The notes under the pieces: generated by a model | What the model was told of the DNA's origin: nothing | Databases searched by the model: none | Seen by the model: the letters and a program-made list of their open reading frames with translations, nothing else | NCBI GenBank assembly: GCA_024695445.1 | Contig: JAILIG010000133.1 | Coordinates: 1 to 64,000, forward strand | Length of the DNA stretch: 64,000 bases | From: Oscillospiraceae bacterium | Lineage (GTDB): Bacteria; Bacillota; Clostridia; Oscillospirales; Ruminococcaceae | Reading direction: 5' to 3' | Made by a program: the position numbers and the translations under genes | Shown: positions 25,690 to 62,193 of the stretch, piece after piece | How positions within the stretch are numbered: position 1 is the first letter of the stretch | Layout: each line of letters starts with the position of its first letter

Positions 25690-25738
25690 GGAAAGCAATG
25701 GGGCTGTTCCGCTGAAAAAGGCGGAGCAGCCCTTTTTT
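25690..25738 (+). promoter_or_regulatory. ANTAR-type antitermination leader: hexaloop hairpin overlapping terminator
   Basis: GGAAAGC[AATGGG]GCT(G)TTCC competing with terminator GGGCTGTTCCGC..GCGGAGCAGCCC-TTTTTT. Confidence 0.7.
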
Positions 25739-25761
25739 CCGGATGTGAAAGGAGGGTTCAG

Positions 25762-26523
25762 ATGAAACTGCATATTCTGGCAGCAGATTCCGGCGAAGGC
25801 AGCGCGAGAAATCTGAAAAACCTCCTCTCTGTTCTGGAGGACACCGATTTTGCGGTCAGCAGATACACGACAAACCTCAATGAAGCGGTGAGTCTGGTGC
25901 TGAGCCGTCAGTTTGATATTCTCCTGTGCATCAACCGTGCGCCGGAATACATCGCTGCAAAGCTGCTGCGGCTGACCGGCGGCACCGAGCGCCGGATTCC
26001 CGCCATCATTCTCAGTGAGCAGGACGATTCCCAGCGGATGCGCGAATGCTTTCTGCTCGGCGCGATCGACTTCCTTTCCGAGCCGATTCCGCCGGAGGAT
26101 CTGATTTCTGCACTTTCCAGAGCCGCCTCCGTGATCCATGAGCAGCTCATTGACTCGGAATATCATGCGGCAGCGGAGGAGGCACTTTCCGTTCTGCCGC
26201 AGTCGGAGGAGCTCCGGCCGATTCTCGAAAAGCTGAGTGCCTTCCTGCAAAAAATGGAGCACCAGACCGCGACGGTCGAGCTGGCAGCGGATTATTTCAG
26301 CTTCAACCGCGACTATTTCGGGCGGTATTTCAAGAGTAAATTCGGTATGACCTTCGGCGATTTCTACAAGAGCTTTCAGATTAGCTACGCCAAGCGGCTG
26401 CTCGAAACCGGGCAGTTCAAGGTTCTGGAGGTCAGCCGGCTGCTCGGCTTTTCCACGCCCGATTATTTCACGCGGGTATTCAAAAAGCACACGGGCTCCG
26501 TGCCGTCTGCCGTCAGGAAATGA
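25762..26523 (+). CDS. Response regulator with AraC-type DNA-binding domain (receiver lacks canonical Asp)
   Basis: Receiver-like N-terminus FDILLCINRAP; C-terminal FNRDYFGRYFKSKFGMTFGDFYKSFQISYAKRLLETGQFKVLEVSRLLGFSTPDYFTRVFKKHTGSVPSAVRK. Confidence 0.88.
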   Translation: MKLHILAADSGEGSARNLKNLLSVLEDTDFAVSRYTTNLNEAVSLVLSRQFDILLCINRAPEYIAAKLLRLTGGTERRIPAIILSEQDDSQRMRECFLLGAIDFLSEPIPPEDLISALSRAASVIHEQLIDSEYHAAAEEALSVLPQSEELRPILEKLSAFLQKMEHQTATVELAADYFSFNRDYFGRYFKSKFGMTFGDFYKSFQISYAKRLLETGQFKVLEVSRLLGFSTPDYFTRVFKKHTGSVPSAVRK

Positions 26524-26857
26524 CCTGCCGGACGGCATTCTGTACGGCGTCCAGCAGCATATAGGGCACGACCGGCATCAGCAGGAGCGTGATCCCGAAA
26601 TGCCGTGCGCGGTCCAGATACCGTGCGTAGCAGTCCGGATTCAGCAGGAGAATCACCGGACATCCGCAGTTCGCGCTGCTCTGCATCAGATCGGAAATGC
26701 GCGATTTTGCGTAGATAATCAGAATCCCGTCCTGCCGTTCCGCCGCGATGCGGGACACATCGGAAACAGCGATATCTGCAAATCCGTCTTGATACAGAAT
26801 ATCGCGCAGCCGTGTTCCGACCGCTGCGGATTCCGATAAAATATGGATTGTATTCAT
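26513..26857 (-). CDS. Stand-alone receiver-like protein
   Basis: MNTIHILSESAAVGTRLRDILYQDGFADI..VSD..DGILIIYAK..VILLLN..; no output domain; promoter ttgtga-17-tataat upstream. Confidence 0.65.
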   Translation of the reverse strand: MNTIHILSESAAVGTRLRDILYQDGFADIAVSDVSRIAAERQDGILIIYAKSRISDLMQSSANCGCPVILLLNPDCYARYLDRARHFGITLLLMPVVPYMLLDAVQNAVRQVIS

Positions 26858-27019
26858 GTAAAAGCCCTCTTGTCTCATGCGTTTTCGTATCTCAATTATA
26901 CGGGAATTACAGCCGCATCACAAGGGCAAAGCAGGCAGTCCGCGGATTATTGCAGGCGGATGTCGGATATTTGCAGGGGATTGTTCGTTGACTTTCCCGC
27001 AGAAAATACGATATGATGA

Positions 27020-31606: not shown

Positions 31607-31635
31607 TTGACAAATCTTTCACAATATGCTATACT
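31607..31635 (+). promoter_or_regulatory. Promoter of amt-PII; core nearly identical to the glutamate synthase promoter
   Basis: TTGACAAATCTTTCACAATATGCTATACT. Confidence 0.8.
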
Positions 31636-31645
31636 GTAATCAGAA

Positions 31646-31696
31646 CAGCAAAGGGGCTGCGGAGAGATTGAACATCCGCAGCCCGTTCTGTTTGTT
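31646..31696 (+). promoter_or_regulatory. Leader attenuator 1: hexaloop hairpin overlapping terminator-like hairpin
   Basis: CAGC[AAAGGG]GCTG; terminator GGGCTGCGGA..TCCGCAGCCC-gttctgtttgtt. Confidence 0.65.
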
Positions 31697-31774
31697 GCAA
31701 AGCGCATTGCAGAAAAAAAGCGAAACGCACAATGGGGTGCATGATGCTGAAAGCTCAGCTCATGCCCCCTTTTT
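31696..31774 (+). promoter_or_regulatory. Leader attenuator 2: two-hairpin ANTAR-type motif plus terminator
   Basis: TGCAA[AGCGCA]TTGCA then GCAC[AATGGG]GTGC, the latter overlapping terminator GGGGtgCATGA..TCATGCCCC-ctttttc. Confidence 0.75.
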
Positions 31775-31800: not shown

Positions 31801-33540
31801 ATGCAGGAAATGTTGCAGACTGTGGACAGCGAGATCTTTGCGGTCTGGTTTTTGATCGGCGCAGCGCTCGTGTTCTTCATGCAGGCGGGCTTTGCGATGG
31901 TCGAGACGGGCTTTACCCGTGCGAAAAACGCTGCCAACATCATTATGAAAAACCTGATGGACTTCTGTATCGGAACCCCGATGTTTGTCCTGATCGGCTT
32001 CGGGCTGTTTCTGGGAGAAGACCTCTGCGGACTGATCGGCAAGCCCGGCTTCGATGTGTTTACCGCTTACGAAAGTTTTGACTGGTCGAATTTCGTGTTC
32101 AATCTGGTGTTCTGCGCGACCGCCGCAACGATTGTTTCGGGCGCGATGGCAGAGCGCACCAAGTTCCTTTCCTATTGTGTGTATTCCGGCATCATCAGCG
32201 CGCTGGTCTATCCGATTGAAGCGCACTGGATCTGGGGCGGCGGCTGGCTCAGTCAGCTCGGCTTCCACGATTTTGCAGGCTCTTGCGCGATTCACATGGT
32301 CGGCGGTATCTCCGCACTGATCGGCGCAAAGATTCTGGGACCGCGTATCGGCAAGTTCAGCAAGAAGTCTGACGGCAGTGTGCAGCCGAATGCAATTCCC
32401 GGCCACAACCTGACGCTCGGCGCACTGGGATGTTTCATCCTCTGGTTCGGCTGGTACGGCTTCAACGGTGCGGCATGTACGAGCACCGGCCAGCTGGCAT
32501 CCGTCTTTGTCACGACGACGATCGCGCCGGCGGTTGCAACCGTCACCTGTATGATCTTCACATGGGTGAAGTACGGCAAGCCTGATGTTTCGATGTGCCT
32601 GAACGCATCGCTGGCCGGTCTGGTCGGCATTACGGCGGGCTGCGATGTCATGGATGTTGCCGGTGCCGGCATCGTCGGCATCGTCTCCGGCTTGCTGGTC
32701 TGCTTCGGTGTGTGGCTGCTCGACTATGTGCTGCATATTGACGATCCGGTCGGTGCAGTCGCCGTCCACATGATGAACGGCATCTGGGGCACGCTTGCGG
32801 TCGGCCTGTTTGCGACGACATCTGCGCCTGCAAACGAAACCATGACCGGTCTGTTCTACGGCGGCGGCTTTGCGCTGCTGGGCAAGCAGCTGCTCGGCTT
32901 TGTGTCGGTTGCCGGCTGGACGGCCGTCACGATGACCGTTGTGTTCCTGGCCATCAAGCATACCATTGGCCTGCGTGCAACGGAGCAGGAGGAAATCCTC
33001 GGCATGGACGCGACGGAGCACGGTCTGGTCAGCTCCTATGCAGACTTTATGCCGGCGATGAACGAGGCCGCGATTGCGGGCTATGTCAAGGGCGATGCCA
33101 AGCGTGTTGAGCAGGTCCCGGCAGCAGAGGCGGTCCCGGTCGAGAACAACATCCCGAACGATGTCAAGGCACCGAAGATGACCAAGATTGCGGTGGTGTT
33201 CAATCAGGAGAAGCTGCATCACTTCATTCACGCGATGGAGCGCATCGGCATCACGGGCGTGACGGTCACAAATGTCATGGGCTGCGGCATCCAGAAGTCG
33301 AACAGCTATTACCGCGGCGCGAAAATGAGCGCGACGCTGCATCCGAAGATCAAGGCAGAAATCGTTGTCTGCAAGGTGCCGGTCGATACCGTTGTGAAGA
33401 CGGCGCGTGAGGTGCTGTATACCGGTCAGGTCGGCGACGGCAAGATCTTCATTTATCCGGTGGAAAAGGTCATCAAGGTGCGGACGGGTTCCGTGAACTA
33501 TGATGCACTCCAGAGTGAGGAGCTGCCGGAAGCAAATTAA
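31801..33540 (+). CDS. amt: Ammonium transporter with C-terminal fused P-II (GlnB/GlnK) domain
   Basis: Amt motifs (FFMQAGFAMVETGFTRAKNAANIIMKNLMDF; FAGSCAIHMVGGISALIGAKILGPR) then KMTKIAVVFNQEKLHHFIHAMERIGITGVTVTNVMGCGIQKSNSYYRGAKM..VGDGKIFIYPVEKVIKVRTG. Confidence 0.95.
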   Translation: MQEMLQTVDSEIFAVWFLIGAALVFFMQAGFAMVETGFTRAKNAANIIMKNLMDFCIGTPMFVLIGFGLFLGEDLCGLIGKPGFDVFTAYESFDWSNFVFNLVFCATAATIVSGAMAERTKFLSYCVYSGIISALVYPIEAHWIWGGGWLSQLGFHDFAGSCAIHMVGGISALIGAKILGPRIGKFSKKSDGSVQPNAIPGHNLTLGALGCFILWFGWYGFNGAACTSTGQLASVFVTTTIAPAVATVTCMIFTWVKYGKPDVSMCLNASLAGLVGITAGCDVMDVAGAGIVGIVSGLLVCFGVWLLDYVLHIDDPVGAVAVHMMNGIWGTLAVGLFATTSAPANETMTGLFYGGGFALLGKQLLGFVSVAGWTAVTMTVVFLAIKHTIGLRATEQEEILGMDATEHGLVSSYADFMPAMNEAAIAGYVKGDAKRVEQVPAAEAVPVENNIPNDVKAPKMTKIAVVFNQEKLHHFIHAMERIGITGVTVTNVMGCGIQKSNSYYRGAKMSATLHPKIKAEIVVCKVPVDTVVKTAREVLYTGQVGDGKIFIYPVEKVIKVRTGSVNYDALQSEELPEAN

Positions 33541-57105: not shown

Positions 57106-57167
57106 GGAATGAACAAAGGCGTTCATCCGGAACACGGACTCCGTGTCTCCGGGTGGACGCTTTTTTT
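57106..57167 (+). promoter_or_regulatory. ANTAR-type antitermination leader: hexaloop hairpin overlapping terminator
   Basis: ATGAAC[AAAGGC]GTTCAT versus terminator GCGTTCATCCGGA..CTCCGGGTGGACGC-TTTTTTT. Confidence 0.75.
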
Positions 57168-57188: not shown

Positions 57189-58283
57189 ATGATCCCACTC
57201 GAAGGTCAGGTGCGCATTCCGTCCGGCTGCGCGGTATCTGCGATGATCTCCCGCGACGGCAGACGCATGAACGGCGAACGCATCATCGAGAGCATGGTGC
57301 CGATGCACGACCGCTCCAACGGTCTCGGCGGCGGCTTTGCCGCATACGGCATCTATCCGGAATACCGCGACTTTTACGCGCTGCATATTTTCTTCAGCAG
57401 CCGCAGCGCACAGAGCGCGTGCATGACGCTGCTGAAGGAGTATTTCGAGATCGTGCAGGACGAGCACATCAAGGTGCGCAAGATGCCGCAGATCACCGAT
57501 GAACCGATTATCCGGCGCGTGTTTGTCTCGCCGATGCAGTCGGTACTGCGGCATTTGCAGATCGACGAAAAGGAACTCGTCGTGCGTGTCGTCAACCGCA
57601 TCAACGCGCAGTCGGACGGCAGCTATGTCTTCTCCTGCGGCAAGAATATGGGCGCGTTCAAGGCAGTTGGCTTCCCGGAGGATGTCGGCAGATACTACCG
57701 CCTCGAAGAATACGATGCCTACTGCTGGACGGCGCACGGCCGGTACCCGACAAATACGCCCGGCTGGTGGGGCGGCGCGCATCCGTTCTGTATGCTCGAT
57801 TATTCGATCGTCCACAACGGCGAAATCTCCAGCTATGACGCCAACCGCCGCTTCATTGAGATGTACGGCTACAAATGTACCTTGCAGACCGACACCGAGG
57901 TCATCACCTATATCGCGGACTACCTGCTCAGACGGCAGGGACTGACGCTCGACGAAATGGCTGCGGTCATTGCGGCACCGTTCTGGTCCACGATCGAAGG
58001 AAAATCCGGTGCGGACCGCGAGAAGTACACCTATCTGCGCACGGTCTTTCCGAGCCTGCTGGTGACCGGTCCGTTCTCGATCATTCTCGGTTTTGACGGC
58101 GGCCTCATGGCGCTCAACGACCGCCTGAAGCTGCGTTCGATGGTGGTCGGCGAGCAGGACGACATGGTCTATATCGCAAGTGAGGAGGCCGCAATCCGCG
58201 TCATGGCGCCGGAGATCAAAAACATCTGGTCGCCCGCCGGCGGCGAGCCGGTCATCGTTCGGGTAAAGGAGGGAGCATTTTGA
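57189..58283 (+). CDS. Glutamate synthase, class II glutamine amidotransferase domain subunit
   Basis: YCWTAHGRYPTNTPGWWGGAHPFCMLDYSIVHNGEISSYDANRRFIE. Confidence 0.92.
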   Translation: MIPLEGQVRIPSGCAVSAMISRDGRRMNGERIIESMVPMHDRSNGLGGGFAAYGIYPEYRDFYALHIFFSSRSAQSACMTLLKEYFEIVQDEHIKVRKMPQITDEPIIRRVFVSPMQSVLRHLQIDEKELVVRVVNRINAQSDGSYVFSCGKNMGAFKAVGFPEDVGRYYRLEEYDAYCWTAHGRYPTNTPGWWGGAHPFCMLDYSIVHNGEISSYDANRRFIEMYGYKCTLQTDTEVITYIADYLLRRQGLTLDEMAAVIAAPFWSTIEGKSGADREKYTYLRTVFPSLLVTGPFSIILGFDGGLMALNDRLKLRSMVVGEQDDMVYIASEEAAIRVMAPEIKNIWSPAGGEPVIVRVKEGAF

Positions 58284-59776
58284 ATTTCTATCCGGAATTT
58301 GAGGTCGTGCGCAGTGACAGCCGGTGTATCCGCTGCCGCGTCTGCGAACGCCAGTGCGCCAATGAAGTACACTGGTACGATGCCGACGGCAAGGTCATGC
58401 TCTCCGACGAATCGAAATGCGTGAACTGTCAGCGGTGTGTGACGCTCTGTCCGACCAGAGCGCTGAAGATTGTCAAGAGCGACTGCCGCCTGCGCGAAAA
58501 CGCCAACTACTCCGATCAGACGATCAAGGAGATCTACCGGCAGGCGGAGACCGGCGGCGTGCTGCTGTCGTCTATGGGAAATCCGAATCCGCTGCCGGTC
58601 TACTGGGACCGGATCCTGATTAACGCTTCGCAGGTGACCAATCCGCCGATTGATCCGCTCAGAGAACCGATGGAAACCCGTGTGTCGCTCGGCAAAAAGC
58701 CCGATCACATCACGAGAAACCCGGACGGCTCGATCGACACGAAGCTGCCGCCGCAGCTGACGCTCAGTATGCCGGTGATGTTCTCGGCGATGAGCTACGG
58801 CTCGATCAGCTACAATGCACACGCTTCGCTTGCCAGAGCGGCATCCGCGCTCGGCATTTACTATAACACCGGCGAGGGCGGTCTGCACGAGGATTTCTAT
58901 CAGTACGGAAAGAACACGATCGTGCAGGTTGCGTCCGGACGCTTCGGTGTCCACAAGGACTATCTCGAAGCGGGCGCGGCCATCGAAATCAAGATGGGAC
59001 AGGGCGCAAAGCCCGGCATCGGCGGACATCTGCCCGGCACGAAGGCGGTCGGGGATGTCTCCAAGACACGCATGATTCCGGAGGGCAGCGATGCGATTTC
59101 GCCGGCACCGCATCACGATATTTATTCGATCGAGGATCTGCGGCAGCTTGTGTATTCGCTCAAGGAGGCGACGGAATACCGTCTGCCGGTGATCGTCAAG
59201 GTCGCGGCGGTGCATAACATCGCGGCGATTGCAAGCGGCATTGCGCGCTCCGGTGCGGATATCATCGCAATCGACGGCTTCCGCGGCGGCACGGGTGCGG
59301 CTCCGACCAGGATCCGTGACAATGTCGGCATCCCGATTGAGCTGGCGCTTGCGGCGGTCGATAAGCGGCTCAGAGATGAGGGCATCCGCAACAATGTTTC
59401 GATCATCTGCGGCGGCTCGGTCCGCTCGGCGGCGGATGTGGTCAAGGCAATCGCACTCGGCGCGGATGCGTGCTACATCGCAACGGCAGCCTGTCTTGCC
59501 ATGGGATGTCATCTCTGCCGGAGCTGCCACACGGGCAAATGCAACTGGGGCATTGCAACGCAGCGTCCCGATCTGGTCAAGCGCCTGAATCCCGATATCG
59601 GCTCGCAGCGGCTCATCAATCTGATGGACGCATGGCGGCATGAAATCAAGGAGCTGATGGGCGGCATGGGCATCAACTCGATCGAAGCACTGCGCGGAAA
59701 CCGGCTGATGCTGCGCGGCGTCGGGCTGACCGAAAAGGAATTGCAGATACTTGGCATTTCTCATGCCGGCGAGTGA
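58280..59776 (+). CDS. Glutamate synthase FMN-binding domain subunit with N-terminal 4Fe-4S domain
   Basis: CIRCRVCERQCANEV, CVNCQRCVTLCPTRAL; MPVMFSAMSYGSISYNAHASLARAAS; GFRGGTGAAPTRIRDNVGIPIELAL. Confidence 0.95.
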   Translation: MNFYPEFEVVRSDSRCIRCRVCERQCANEVHWYDADGKVMLSDESKCVNCQRCVTLCPTRALKIVKSDCRLRENANYSDQTIKEIYRQAETGGVLLSSMGNPNPLPVYWDRILINASQVTNPPIDPLREPMETRVSLGKKPDHITRNPDGSIDTKLPPQLTLSMPVMFSAMSYGSISYNAHASLARAASALGIYYNTGEGGLHEDFYQYGKNTIVQVASGRFGVHKDYLEAGAAIEIKMGQGAKPGIGGHLPGTKAVGDVSKTRMIPEGSDAISPAPHHDIYSIEDLRQLVYSLKEATEYRLPVIVKVAAVHNIAAIASGIARSGADIIAIDGFRGGTGAAPTRIRDNVGIPIELALAAVDKRLRDEGIRNNVSIICGGSVRSAADVVKAIALGADACYIATAACLAMGCHLCRSCHTGKCNWGIATQRPDLVKRLNPDIGSQRLINLMDAWRHEIKELMGGMGINSIEALRGNRLMLRGVGLTEKELQILGISHAGE

Positions 59777-59791
59777 AGCGGGGGCGTACAT

Positions 59792-60235
59792 ATGAAACGA
59801 ATCTATGTCAGGGAAGAATGGTGCCTCGGGTGCCATCTGTGCGAATATAACTGCGCATTTGCCAATTCCGGTATGACGGATATGGTCAAGGCGCTGCGCG
59901 GGAAAACAATCTATCCGCGCATTCAGGTCGAGACGGACGAAAACGGCGTAACCTACGCGGTCTCCTGCCGGCACTGCAAGGATCCGGTCTGCGTGAAAAG
60001 CTGCATTGCCGGCGCGATCTCCCAAAAGGACGGCGTCATCGAAATCAATCATGACAAATGCGTCGGCTGCCTGACCTGCGTGCTGGTATGTCCCTACGGC
60101 GCGGTGGTCGAGGACGGCAGCGGCGTCGCGCAGAAATGTGAGCTGTGCATGAAAAATGCCTGCGGTGCGCCGGCCTGTGTCAAGGGCTGTCCGAACGGCG
60201 CGATTGTGTATGAGGAGCGGGGTGAACGGGAGTGA
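59792..60235 (+). CDS. 4Fe-4S ferredoxin subunit
   Basis: CLGCHLCEYNCAF; CRHCKDPVCVKSC; CVGCLTCVLVCPYGAV. Confidence 0.92.
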   Translation: MKRIYVREEWCLGCHLCEYNCAFANSGMTDMVKALRGKTIYPRIQVETDENGVTYAVSCRHCKDPVCVKSCIAGAISQKDGVIEINHDKCVGCLTCVLVCPYGAVVEDGSGVAQKCELCMKNACGAPACVKGCPNGAIVYEERGERE

Positions 60236-61470
60236 AAAGGTATATCATCATCGGAAACGGCGTTGCCGCGGCAGGCTGTATCGAGGGCATCCGCTCGGTC
60301 GATGCGGAGGGCAGCATCACGGTCATCTCCGCAGAGAATCATCCCGTATACTGCCGCCCGCTGATTTCGTATTATCTCGAACAGAAAACCGATCTGAAGC
60401 GGATGCAGTACCGCGCAGATTCCTTTTACGCGGATCATCATGTGAATCTGGTCTGCGGCAGATCGGCCGCGGAGATCCGCGCAGAGGAAAAGGAGATCGT
60501 TCTGGACAACGGCGACAGCTTCTCCTACGACGCCCTCTGCTGCTGCACGGGCTCTTCACCGTTCGTGCCGCCGATGACGGGGCTTGACACCGTGGAAAAC
60601 AAGTTCAGCTTCATGACGATCGACGACACGCTTGCACTCGAACAGGTGATTACGCCGGATTCCCGCGTGCTCATCATCGGCGCCGGACTGATCGGCCTGA
60701 AATGTGCGGAGGGACTGCACGGCCGCGTCAAGAGCATCACGGTCTGTGATCTGGCGCCGCGTGTCCTCTCGTCGATTCTCGATGACAAATGCGCCGCGAT
60801 GATGCAGAAGCATCTCGAAGCAAACGGCATTTCGTTCCTGCTCGGCACGAGCGCAAAGGAATTCAGCGGAAATCATGCCGTCATGCAGAACGGTGCAGAA
60901 GTTGATTTTGATGTGCTGGTGCTGGCCGTCGGTGTGCGCGCCAATACCGCACTGGTAAAGAATGCGGGCGGAGCTGGCGGCCGCGGCATCGCGGTCAGTG
61001 ATGCGTGTGAAACCTCTCTGCCGGATATTTACGCCGCAGGTGACTGTACCGAGTATCACGACATTTCGTCAGATACGGTCAAAGTCATGGCGCTGATGCC
61101 GAATGCGTATATGCAGGGGCATACGGCGGGCGTCAATATGGCAGGCGGCAGCGCCGTATTCGACAATGCGATCCCGATGAACTCCATCGGCTTTTTCGGG
61201 CTGCACTGTCACACTGCCGGCAGTCAGCCGGAGGGCTGTGAGATGTACGAGGAGGCGGATGAACAGCATATCAAGCGGCTGTTTATCAAGGACGACAGGC
61301 TGACCGGATTCATGCTGATCGGACAGATGCACCGGACGGGAATCTATACGGCGCTGATCCGCAGTCAGACGCCGCTGTCGTCGGTGGATTTCGCACGCCT
61401 GAAAATTGAGCCGCAGCTCGCGGCCATGGGCCGTGCGTACCGTGACAAAGTGCTGAAAGGAGCGGTCTGA
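60232..61470 (+). CDS. FAD-dependent NAD(P)H oxidoreductase subunit
   Basis: IIGNGVAAAGCIEGIRSVD; VLIIGAGLIGLKCAEGL; DIYAAGDCTE. Confidence 0.93.
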   Translation: MKRYIIIGNGVAAAGCIEGIRSVDAEGSITVISAENHPVYCRPLISYYLEQKTDLKRMQYRADSFYADHHVNLVCGRSAAEIRAEEKEIVLDNGDSFSYDALCCCTGSSPFVPPMTGLDTVENKFSFMTIDDTLALEQVITPDSRVLIIGAGLIGLKCAEGLHGRVKSITVCDLAPRVLSSILDDKCAAMMQKHLEANGISFLLGTSAKEFSGNHAVMQNGAEVDFDVLVLAVGVRANTALVKNAGGAGGRGIAVSDACETSLPDIYAAGDCTEYHDISSDTVKVMALMPNAYMQGHTAGVNMAGGSAVFDNAIPMNSIGFFGLHCHTAGSQPEGCEMYEEADEQHIKRLFIKDDRLTGFMLIGQMHRTGIYTALIRSQTPLSSVDFARLKIEPQLAAMGRAYRDKVLKGAV

Positions 61471-62193
61471 ATGGAACTGAATGTATCGGCAATGGGCTTT
61501 TCCGAGGTCAATGAGCAGATGCGGCAGACAGCGGACCGCGAAATCACGCTGACGGGCTGCATCGGGCAGCGCTTTCTTGCAGCCGGAACCGGCGGCAAAT
61601 ATGTGAAGATCTGCGGCATCGCCGGAAACGCCCTCGGCGCGTACCTCAACGGCACGGTCATCGAGACCTTCGGCAATGCACAGGACGCAGTCGGCGACAC
61701 GATGAATGCGGGCGAGATCATCGTTCACGGCAACATCGGCGATGCGGCAGGCTACGCGATGCGCGGCGGAAAAATCTTCGTGCAGGGGAATGCCGGATAC
61801 CGGGCGGGCATCCACATGAAGGCCTATCAGGAGAAGGTGCCGGTCATGGTCATCGGCGGCAGGACCGGCAGCTTCCTCGGAGAATATCAGGCGGGCGGCA
61901 TCATCATCGTGCTGGGACTTTCCGGCGGGGAAAAGCCGATCGTCAGCAATTTCCCCTGCACCGGAATGCACGGCGGAAAGCTGTTTCTGCGGTCGGACTG
62001 CGCAGGCATTCACTTCCCGCATCAGGTGCATCACCGCATCGCCTCTGCGGACGAGCTGGAGGAAATCCGCCCGCATATCGCGGAATACTGTGCGCATTTC
62101 GGCGGCGATCCCGATGAGATTCTGAATGCACCGTTCACGCTTGTGACGCCGGACAGCGGCAACCCCTATCAGCAGATGTATGTAGCGAACTAA
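61471..62193 (+). CDS. Glutamate synthase GXGXG domain subunit
   Basis: GNALGAYLNG, GNAQDAVGDTMNAGEIIVHGNIGDAAGYAMRGGKIFVQGNAGYRAGIHMKAY repeats. Confidence 0.93.
   Translation: MELNVSAMGFSEVNEQMRQTADREITLTGCIGQRFLAAGTGGKYVKICGIAGNALGAYLNGTVIETFGNAQDAVGDTMNAGEIIVHGNIGDAAGYAMRGGKIFVQGNAGYRAGIHMKAYQEKVPVMVIGGRTGSFLGEYQAGGIIIVLGLSGGEKPIVSNFPCTGMHGGKLFLRSDCAGIHFPHQVHHRIASADELEEIRPHIAEYCAHFGGDPDEILNAPFTLVTPDSGNPYQQMYVAN

Follow-up and report, generated by a model that had tools for sequence, protein, structure and literature searches.

What does a bacterium do with three small hexaloop hairpins packed into the leader of its ammonium transporter gene, and can an ANTAR protein act on a hexaloop that has no partner? 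Both questions are raised by the amt-PII leader in the 64,000-nucleotide stretch of Oscillospiraceae DNA analysed here (the window). An earlier note had read this leader as two termination decisions in succession, the first of a one-hairpin type and the second of the canonical two-hairpin type. Overall, we believe that the leader consists of two ANTAR-controlled transcription attenuators in series, with a unit 1 that is predicted to work through one hairpin and no upstream recruitment hairpin (P1), and we put the probability of this reading at about three in four. It draws on sequence, structure, conservation, covariation and the genomic association with ANTAR and nitrogen genes.

Table 1. Coordinates of the amt-PII leader and of two further single-hexaloop units in the window.
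Feature	Position	Strand	Basis
Promoter, sigma-70-type TTGACA-N17-TATACT	31607..31635	+	sequence, score 11/12
TTGACA box	31607-31612
TATACT box, after 17-nt spacer	31630-31635
Hexaloop hairpin A, CAGC[AAAGGG]GCTG, predicted antiterminator of unit 1	31646..31659	+	sequence
Terminator stem 1, 10 bp	31654..31684	+	fold -20.3 kcal/mol, -25.4 with outer stem
Hexaloop TTGCAA[AGCGCA]TTGCAG, putative P1 (recruitment hairpin) in unit 2	31695..31712	+	conserved core, both-sided changes
Hexaloop hairpin B, GCAC[AATGGG]GTGC, predicted antiterminator (P2) of unit 2	31727..31740	+	sequence
Terminator 2, long stem then T5	31733..31774	+	fold -24.9 kcal/mol
TTTTT tract of terminator 2	31770-31774
amt-PII fusion gene, one fused frame, ATG at 31801, presumed regulated gene	31801..33540	+	Pfam PF00909 (3e-120) and PF00543 (3e-20)
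Single-hexaloop unit AGC[AATGGG]GCT with terminator and T-run, right after promoter, before receiver-AraC regulator (25762-26523)	25694..25733	+
Single-hexaloop unit ATGAAC[AAAGGC]GTTCAT with terminator and T-run, right after promoter, before glutamate synthase operon (57189 onward)	57109..57164	+

The three hairpins lie where the earlier note had placed them, the middle one being a pair longer than it had been given there, and the two terminators that it had described, a 10-bp stem overlapped by hairpin A and a long T5 terminator overlapped by hairpin B, are both recovered by folding. Transcription is predicted from the sequence to start near 31642, which places the first base of hairpin A about 4 nt into the RNA and about 10 nt past the -10 box. 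The 5' arm of terminator 1 takes in the last two loop positions (5-6) of hairpin A together with that hairpin's 3' arm, and in this window the stem is lengthened by an outer stem, CAGAAC/GTTCTG. Its U-tract here is weak, with GTTCTGTTTGTT following the stem instead of a clean T-run, and given this tract unit 1 may be leaky in the window. Alternative folds make hairpin and terminator overlapping and mutually exclusive in both units, the weak U-tract of unit 1 being kept in mind. When the growing transcript is folded at equilibrium, as RNA alone, hairpin A dominates from 31659 to about 31680 and is displaced by terminator 1 at 31684, while hairpin B is seen from 31740 to 31760 and is lost by 31765-31770. 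The leader as a whole is more stable than its shuffles (z -6.1), and Rfam scans of it returned no family above the gathering cut-off. A fourth A1/G4 hexaloop, GCTG[AAAGCT]CAGC at 31746-31759, forms the apex of terminator 2 and is not conserved in the genus.

A search of the genus covered 30 genomes, 25 of them with amt, and gave 22 alignable leaders. The full tandem is kept in all 22, in the order promoter, hairpin A, terminator 1, AGCGC element, hairpin B, terminator 2 and ribosome site. The sigma-70-type promoter is present in every aligned leader, the stems of hairpins A and B are invariant in all 22, the hairpin A of the window recurs with one-base loop variants in two leaders, and hairpin B reads GCAC[AA(T/C)GGG]GTGC. 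Across the same leaders pairing is kept in 98% of cells for terminator 1, with compensatory changes, and in 92% for terminator 2, with both-sided changes at five pairs; taken jointly, the two terminators show seven pairs with both-sided changes and pairing retained. The candidate P1 has a conserved AGCGC core and forms at least three pairs in 18 of the 22 leaders, usually as a weak 3-bp stem. Its linker to hairpin B runs from 7 to 18 nt across the genus and is 14 nt in the window, a length that crippled induction of an eutP reporter in E. faecalis (PMC3369931). Two attenuators in series, the first with one hairpin, are supported as the earlier note had proposed, and a canonical two-hairpin design for the second is less certain, since P1 is usually so weak, its linker here is so long, and it is missing in most other genera.

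Genomes of the same family, together with named records for Ruminococcus, Lachnospiraceae, Butyrivibrio and related bacteria, supplied the 109 amt leaders of the wider survey. They contained 120 hexaloop hairpins that overlap a terminator's 5' arm; the A1/G4 class made up 93 of these and the next class 5, and five rounds of shuffling produced 40 such hairpins in total, with A1/G4 outside the commonest classes. Removal of near duplicates left 89 units, in which the loop follows AANGRN, with A2 in 89/89, R5 in 89/89 (G in 77, A in 12) and a C-G closing pair in 89/89, none of these three features being imposed by the scan. When no stem was required, at least four flanking pairs surrounded 62% of AANGRN hexamers in terminator arms and 1-2% of other hexamers. 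The hairpins had been called ANTAR-type in the earlier note, with conservation of A1 and G4 in homologous leaders as one of the points on which that assignment was to be judged, and both positions proved to be conserved. A strict scan finds two units in 19 of 70 unit-bearing leaders, one of which (L008) holds a nested pair rather than a series, and the hairpin B type also occurs in many other genera.

EutV antitermination requires both hexaloops, P1 and P2, joined by a short linker (PMC3369931, PMC8934654), and this requirement counts against a single-hexaloop unit 1. In the window no P1 was found upstream of unit 1, where the dual ANTAR motif would have its second hexaloop. Among the amt units an A1/G4 hexaloop lies 3-20 nt upstream in 7 of 89, no more commonly than other loop classes, and the hexaloop begins 5-16 nt past the -10 box in 45 of 61 units that have a recognisable promoter, so that there is no room for a P1 in the RNA. 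The eutA loci served as a positive control, in the same kind of scan applied to a small set with slightly different terminator thresholds, and there 4 of 8 units had a P1, its stem 4-9 bp long and its linker 8-13 nt; A1/G4 attenuators with loops of the A-N-N-G-R-N type were detected in eutA leaders by the same scanner. Structural work on EutV left open whether single-hexaloop ANTAR sites exist or work and why EutV needs two, its authors expecting single sites only where the transcribing polymerase sets no time limit (PMC8934654). A literature search to which subscription papers were closed brought up no publication that describes ANTAR attenuators with a single hexaloop in Ruminococcus or other Clostridia. 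The predicted 5'-terminal, P1-less single-hexaloop attenuator and its apparent spread over the nitrogen regulon are the new part. We cautiously favour the view that a lone hexaloop hairpin at the very start of the RNA suffices for antitermination by ANTAR, with no recruitment hairpin needed, and that this is the main design of the ammonium-assimilation regulon across Ruminococcaceae- and Lachnospiraceae-type bacteria.

The link to ANTAR comes from comparison of genomes. In 101 family genomes, one per genus, ANTAR was found in 42 of 43 amt-bearing and 28 of 58 amt-less genomes (p 1.5e-8, inflated by shared ancestry), and in the genus itself in 20 of 25 amt-bearing and 0 of 5 amt-less genomes. 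We defined a type-A unit as a match to CAGCAANGGNGCTG with promoter and terminator context; of 113 matches in all, 49 of the 88 in ANTAR genomes and none of the 25 in ANTAR-less genomes were such units (p 7e-8, likewise inflated), 47 with a scored terminator and two with a weaker T-run. Counts of CAGCAANGGNGCTG alone separated ANTAR-bearing from ANTAR-less genomes poorly, and the promoter and terminator context was needed; the pattern CAANGGNGN{0,1}C was dropped as too loose. The promoter-anchored pattern also matches Shine-Dalgarno sites (CAAAGGAG), and its use was confined to matches that recur next to known genes. In an ANTAR-less genome that is 83% complete, a hexaloop and terminator stand before gdhA with no recognised promoter (L191). 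The genes downstream of type-A units in the family are glnN, amt, glnA and gdhA.

In the present genome, units precede amt, glnN, the glutamate synthase operon and the receiver-AraC gene. The one detectable ANTAR protein is encoded at 66506-67096 of the same contig (PF03861 match at C131:66914-67075, E 1.1e-14), within a glnA-ANTAR-glnN gene order (65247-69468) that belongs to the same nitrogen island as amt-PII; glnN, which encodes a type III glutamine synthetase (GSIII), follows the ANTAR gene and has its own hexaloop unit. Relatives have an element matching the 25694 unit some 6 kb upstream of amt, and the 57109 element recurs in the genus. The receiver-AraC regulator has its own single-hexaloop unit (25694-26523), so that a second transcription regulator may come under the ANTAR switch. 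Glutamate synthase (57189-62193) is split into a glutaminase part, an FMN part with 4Fe-4S, a pyridine-nucleotide reductase-like gene and a GXGXG-like gene, with one attenuator ahead of them all. A small receiver-like protein without a Pfam match (26513-26878, minus strand) is divergent from gdhA.

The ANTAR domain was aligned with EutV (6wsh) and AmiR (1qo0), with a numbering offset derived by hand. Several EutV RNA-contact residues are kept, the equivalents of Lys149, Glu160 and Met172 being retained, and Arg occupies the positions of EutV Lys143 and Lys147. At the Tyr164 position there is a His, which counts against the ANTAR reading, though AmiR has His there as well. The receiver is a pseudo-receiver: in 20 aligned genus sequences Asn stands at the position of the phosphoacceptor Asp (LINIPL in this genome's protein), and control by phosphorylation is unlikely for that reason. 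What switches the protein, as with AmiR, is probably a partner protein or a ligand and not a kinase; that GlnA, the product of the neighbouring gene, is this partner is only a guess.

That ANTAR binds the hairpins and antiterminates, that it is active when ammonium is low, and what its input is are matters of inference, and the course of events can be pictured as follows. Consider a polymerase that has just cleared the promoter: in each unit the nascent RNA would fold the small AANGRN hexaloop hairpin first (about -3.6 kcal/mol). Were no protein bound, the terminator that overlaps this hairpin (roughly -20 to -25 kcal/mol) would supplant it and transcription would halt; were the sole receiver-ANTAR protein, encoded after glnA, to grip the hexaloop hairpin, RNA polymerase would pass. 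Unit 1 would run on a lone 5'-terminal hexaloop, with no upstream recruitment hairpin, and unit 2 would have gained a P1-like hexaloop in this genus. Two units in series would multiply their readthrough probabilities, and the response to ammonium might become sharper in this way, as the earlier note had suggested.

Other explanations have to be weighed against this arrangement. Unit 2 alone might be the regulated terminator. Stem 1 would then not terminate in this strain, and hairpin A would serve for docking, keeping ANTAR protein concentrated near P1 and hairpin B. The imperfect tract after terminator 1 in the window speaks for such docking, as do the 63-82 nt that separate hairpins A and B in the genus and its closer relatives, and the proposal that a recruitment hairpin hands protein on (PMC8934654). 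We nonetheless consider docking unlikely, because most genus members carry TTTT or more after stem 1, compensatory change preserves its pairing, and before glnN, glnA, gdhA and many amt genes a type-A unit is found with no unit 2 beside it. Unit 1 might instead pair hairpin A with a second hexaloop, nested in the terminator loop or supplied by the P1 downstream, in a reversed dual motif. Nested A1/G4 hexaloops do occur in 16 of 89 units, where they are the commonest nested class, and in nine units the nested hexaloop is AANGRN (e.g. L008, L012, L015, L134, L137, L157), so some lineages, accounting for roughly a tenth of the units, may carry a reversed motif of this kind. As an account of unit 1 it is quite improbable, because some 90% of units are without a nested AANGRN hexaloop, unit 1 of this window among them.

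A smaller chance still attaches to the idea that the central AAAGCGCTTT is a DNA operator, a palindrome of the CcpA/LacI type, which would leave unit 2 without a P1 as well. Its core is perfectly palindromic in most genus members, but the palindrome is broken in the window, in L034 and in L037, where the RNA stem grows to 6-7 pairs; both-sided changes occur at 4 of the 6 pairs of candidate P1 in the genus leaders; and the other matches in the genus (L248-L262), judged by eye, look mostly coding rather than like promoter sites. The operator reading is accordingly disfavoured. Could a factor other than ANTAR act on the hairpins? ANTAR was not detected in five amt-bearing genus genomes, among them G120 (97% complete); in G035 (98% complete, amt-bearing) it was not found even by a direct search for a hidden copy, and both hexaloops are present before amt (L010). 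Type-A units track ANTAR genes all the same, precede glnA in several genomes and resemble eut loops, and we hold another factor to be very unlikely. That the hairpins arose by chance beside ordinary terminators has next to no probability: any long sequence yields short hexaloop hairpins, and many weak ones are present here, but with four A1/G4 hexaloops on stems of at least 4 bp within 133 nt, only 4 of 20,000 dinucleotide shuffles gave three or more and none gave four, two C[AANGRN]G hairpins appeared in 0 of 20,000, and the motif is kept across many genera. Chance was rejected on the conservation of the hairpins in homologous leaders.

The two serial attenuators that we favour have relatives among described systems. 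As in EutV/EutW of the Enterococcus faecalis eut operon (PMC3369931, PMC8934654), A1/G4 hexaloops lie over the 5' arm of intrinsic terminators, a receiver-ANTAR protein is present, an operon can have several terminators, and the loops match the A-N-N-G-R-N type of the scanned eutA leaders. In contrast, EutV needs P1 and P2 with a 5-12 nt linker where unit 1 has a single 5'-end hexaloop, and the phosphoacceptor Asp is replaced by Asn here and the genes served are those of ammonium assimilation. A covariance search for ANTAR nitrogen regulons had already placed sites before ammonium transporter, PII, glutamine synthetase and glutamate synthase genes (Ramesh et al. 2012, PMC3369931), and Desulfotomaculum acetoxidans has 13 ANTAR attenuators in six transcription units (PMC3369931). 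ANTAR sites at amt and several attenuators per operon have thus been known since 2012; those predictions required two hairpins, and the type-A unit falls outside that model. AmiR of the Pseudomonas aeruginosa amidase operon shares the pseudo-receiver, the ANTAR domain and the His at the EutV Tyr164 position, but is held by AmiC, while the ANTAR protein here has glnA as its operon neighbour. Mycobacterial and actinobacterial ANTAR RNAs also have A1/G4 hexaloops (PMC8164766), and some mycobacterial ones depart from the dual motif (PMC8934654); unlike the units described here, few overlap intrinsic terminators, and a ribosome-binding site or start codon is close to many of them (PMC8164766).

These leaders look like natural single-hexaloop attenuators under the time limit of a transcribing polymerase, in dozens of genera and with a cognate ANTAR gene, and because they occur in that setting the single-hexaloop question becomes directly testable. 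The units also sketch the extent of a regulon for glutamine, glutamate and ammonium in bacteria of the gut and rumen.
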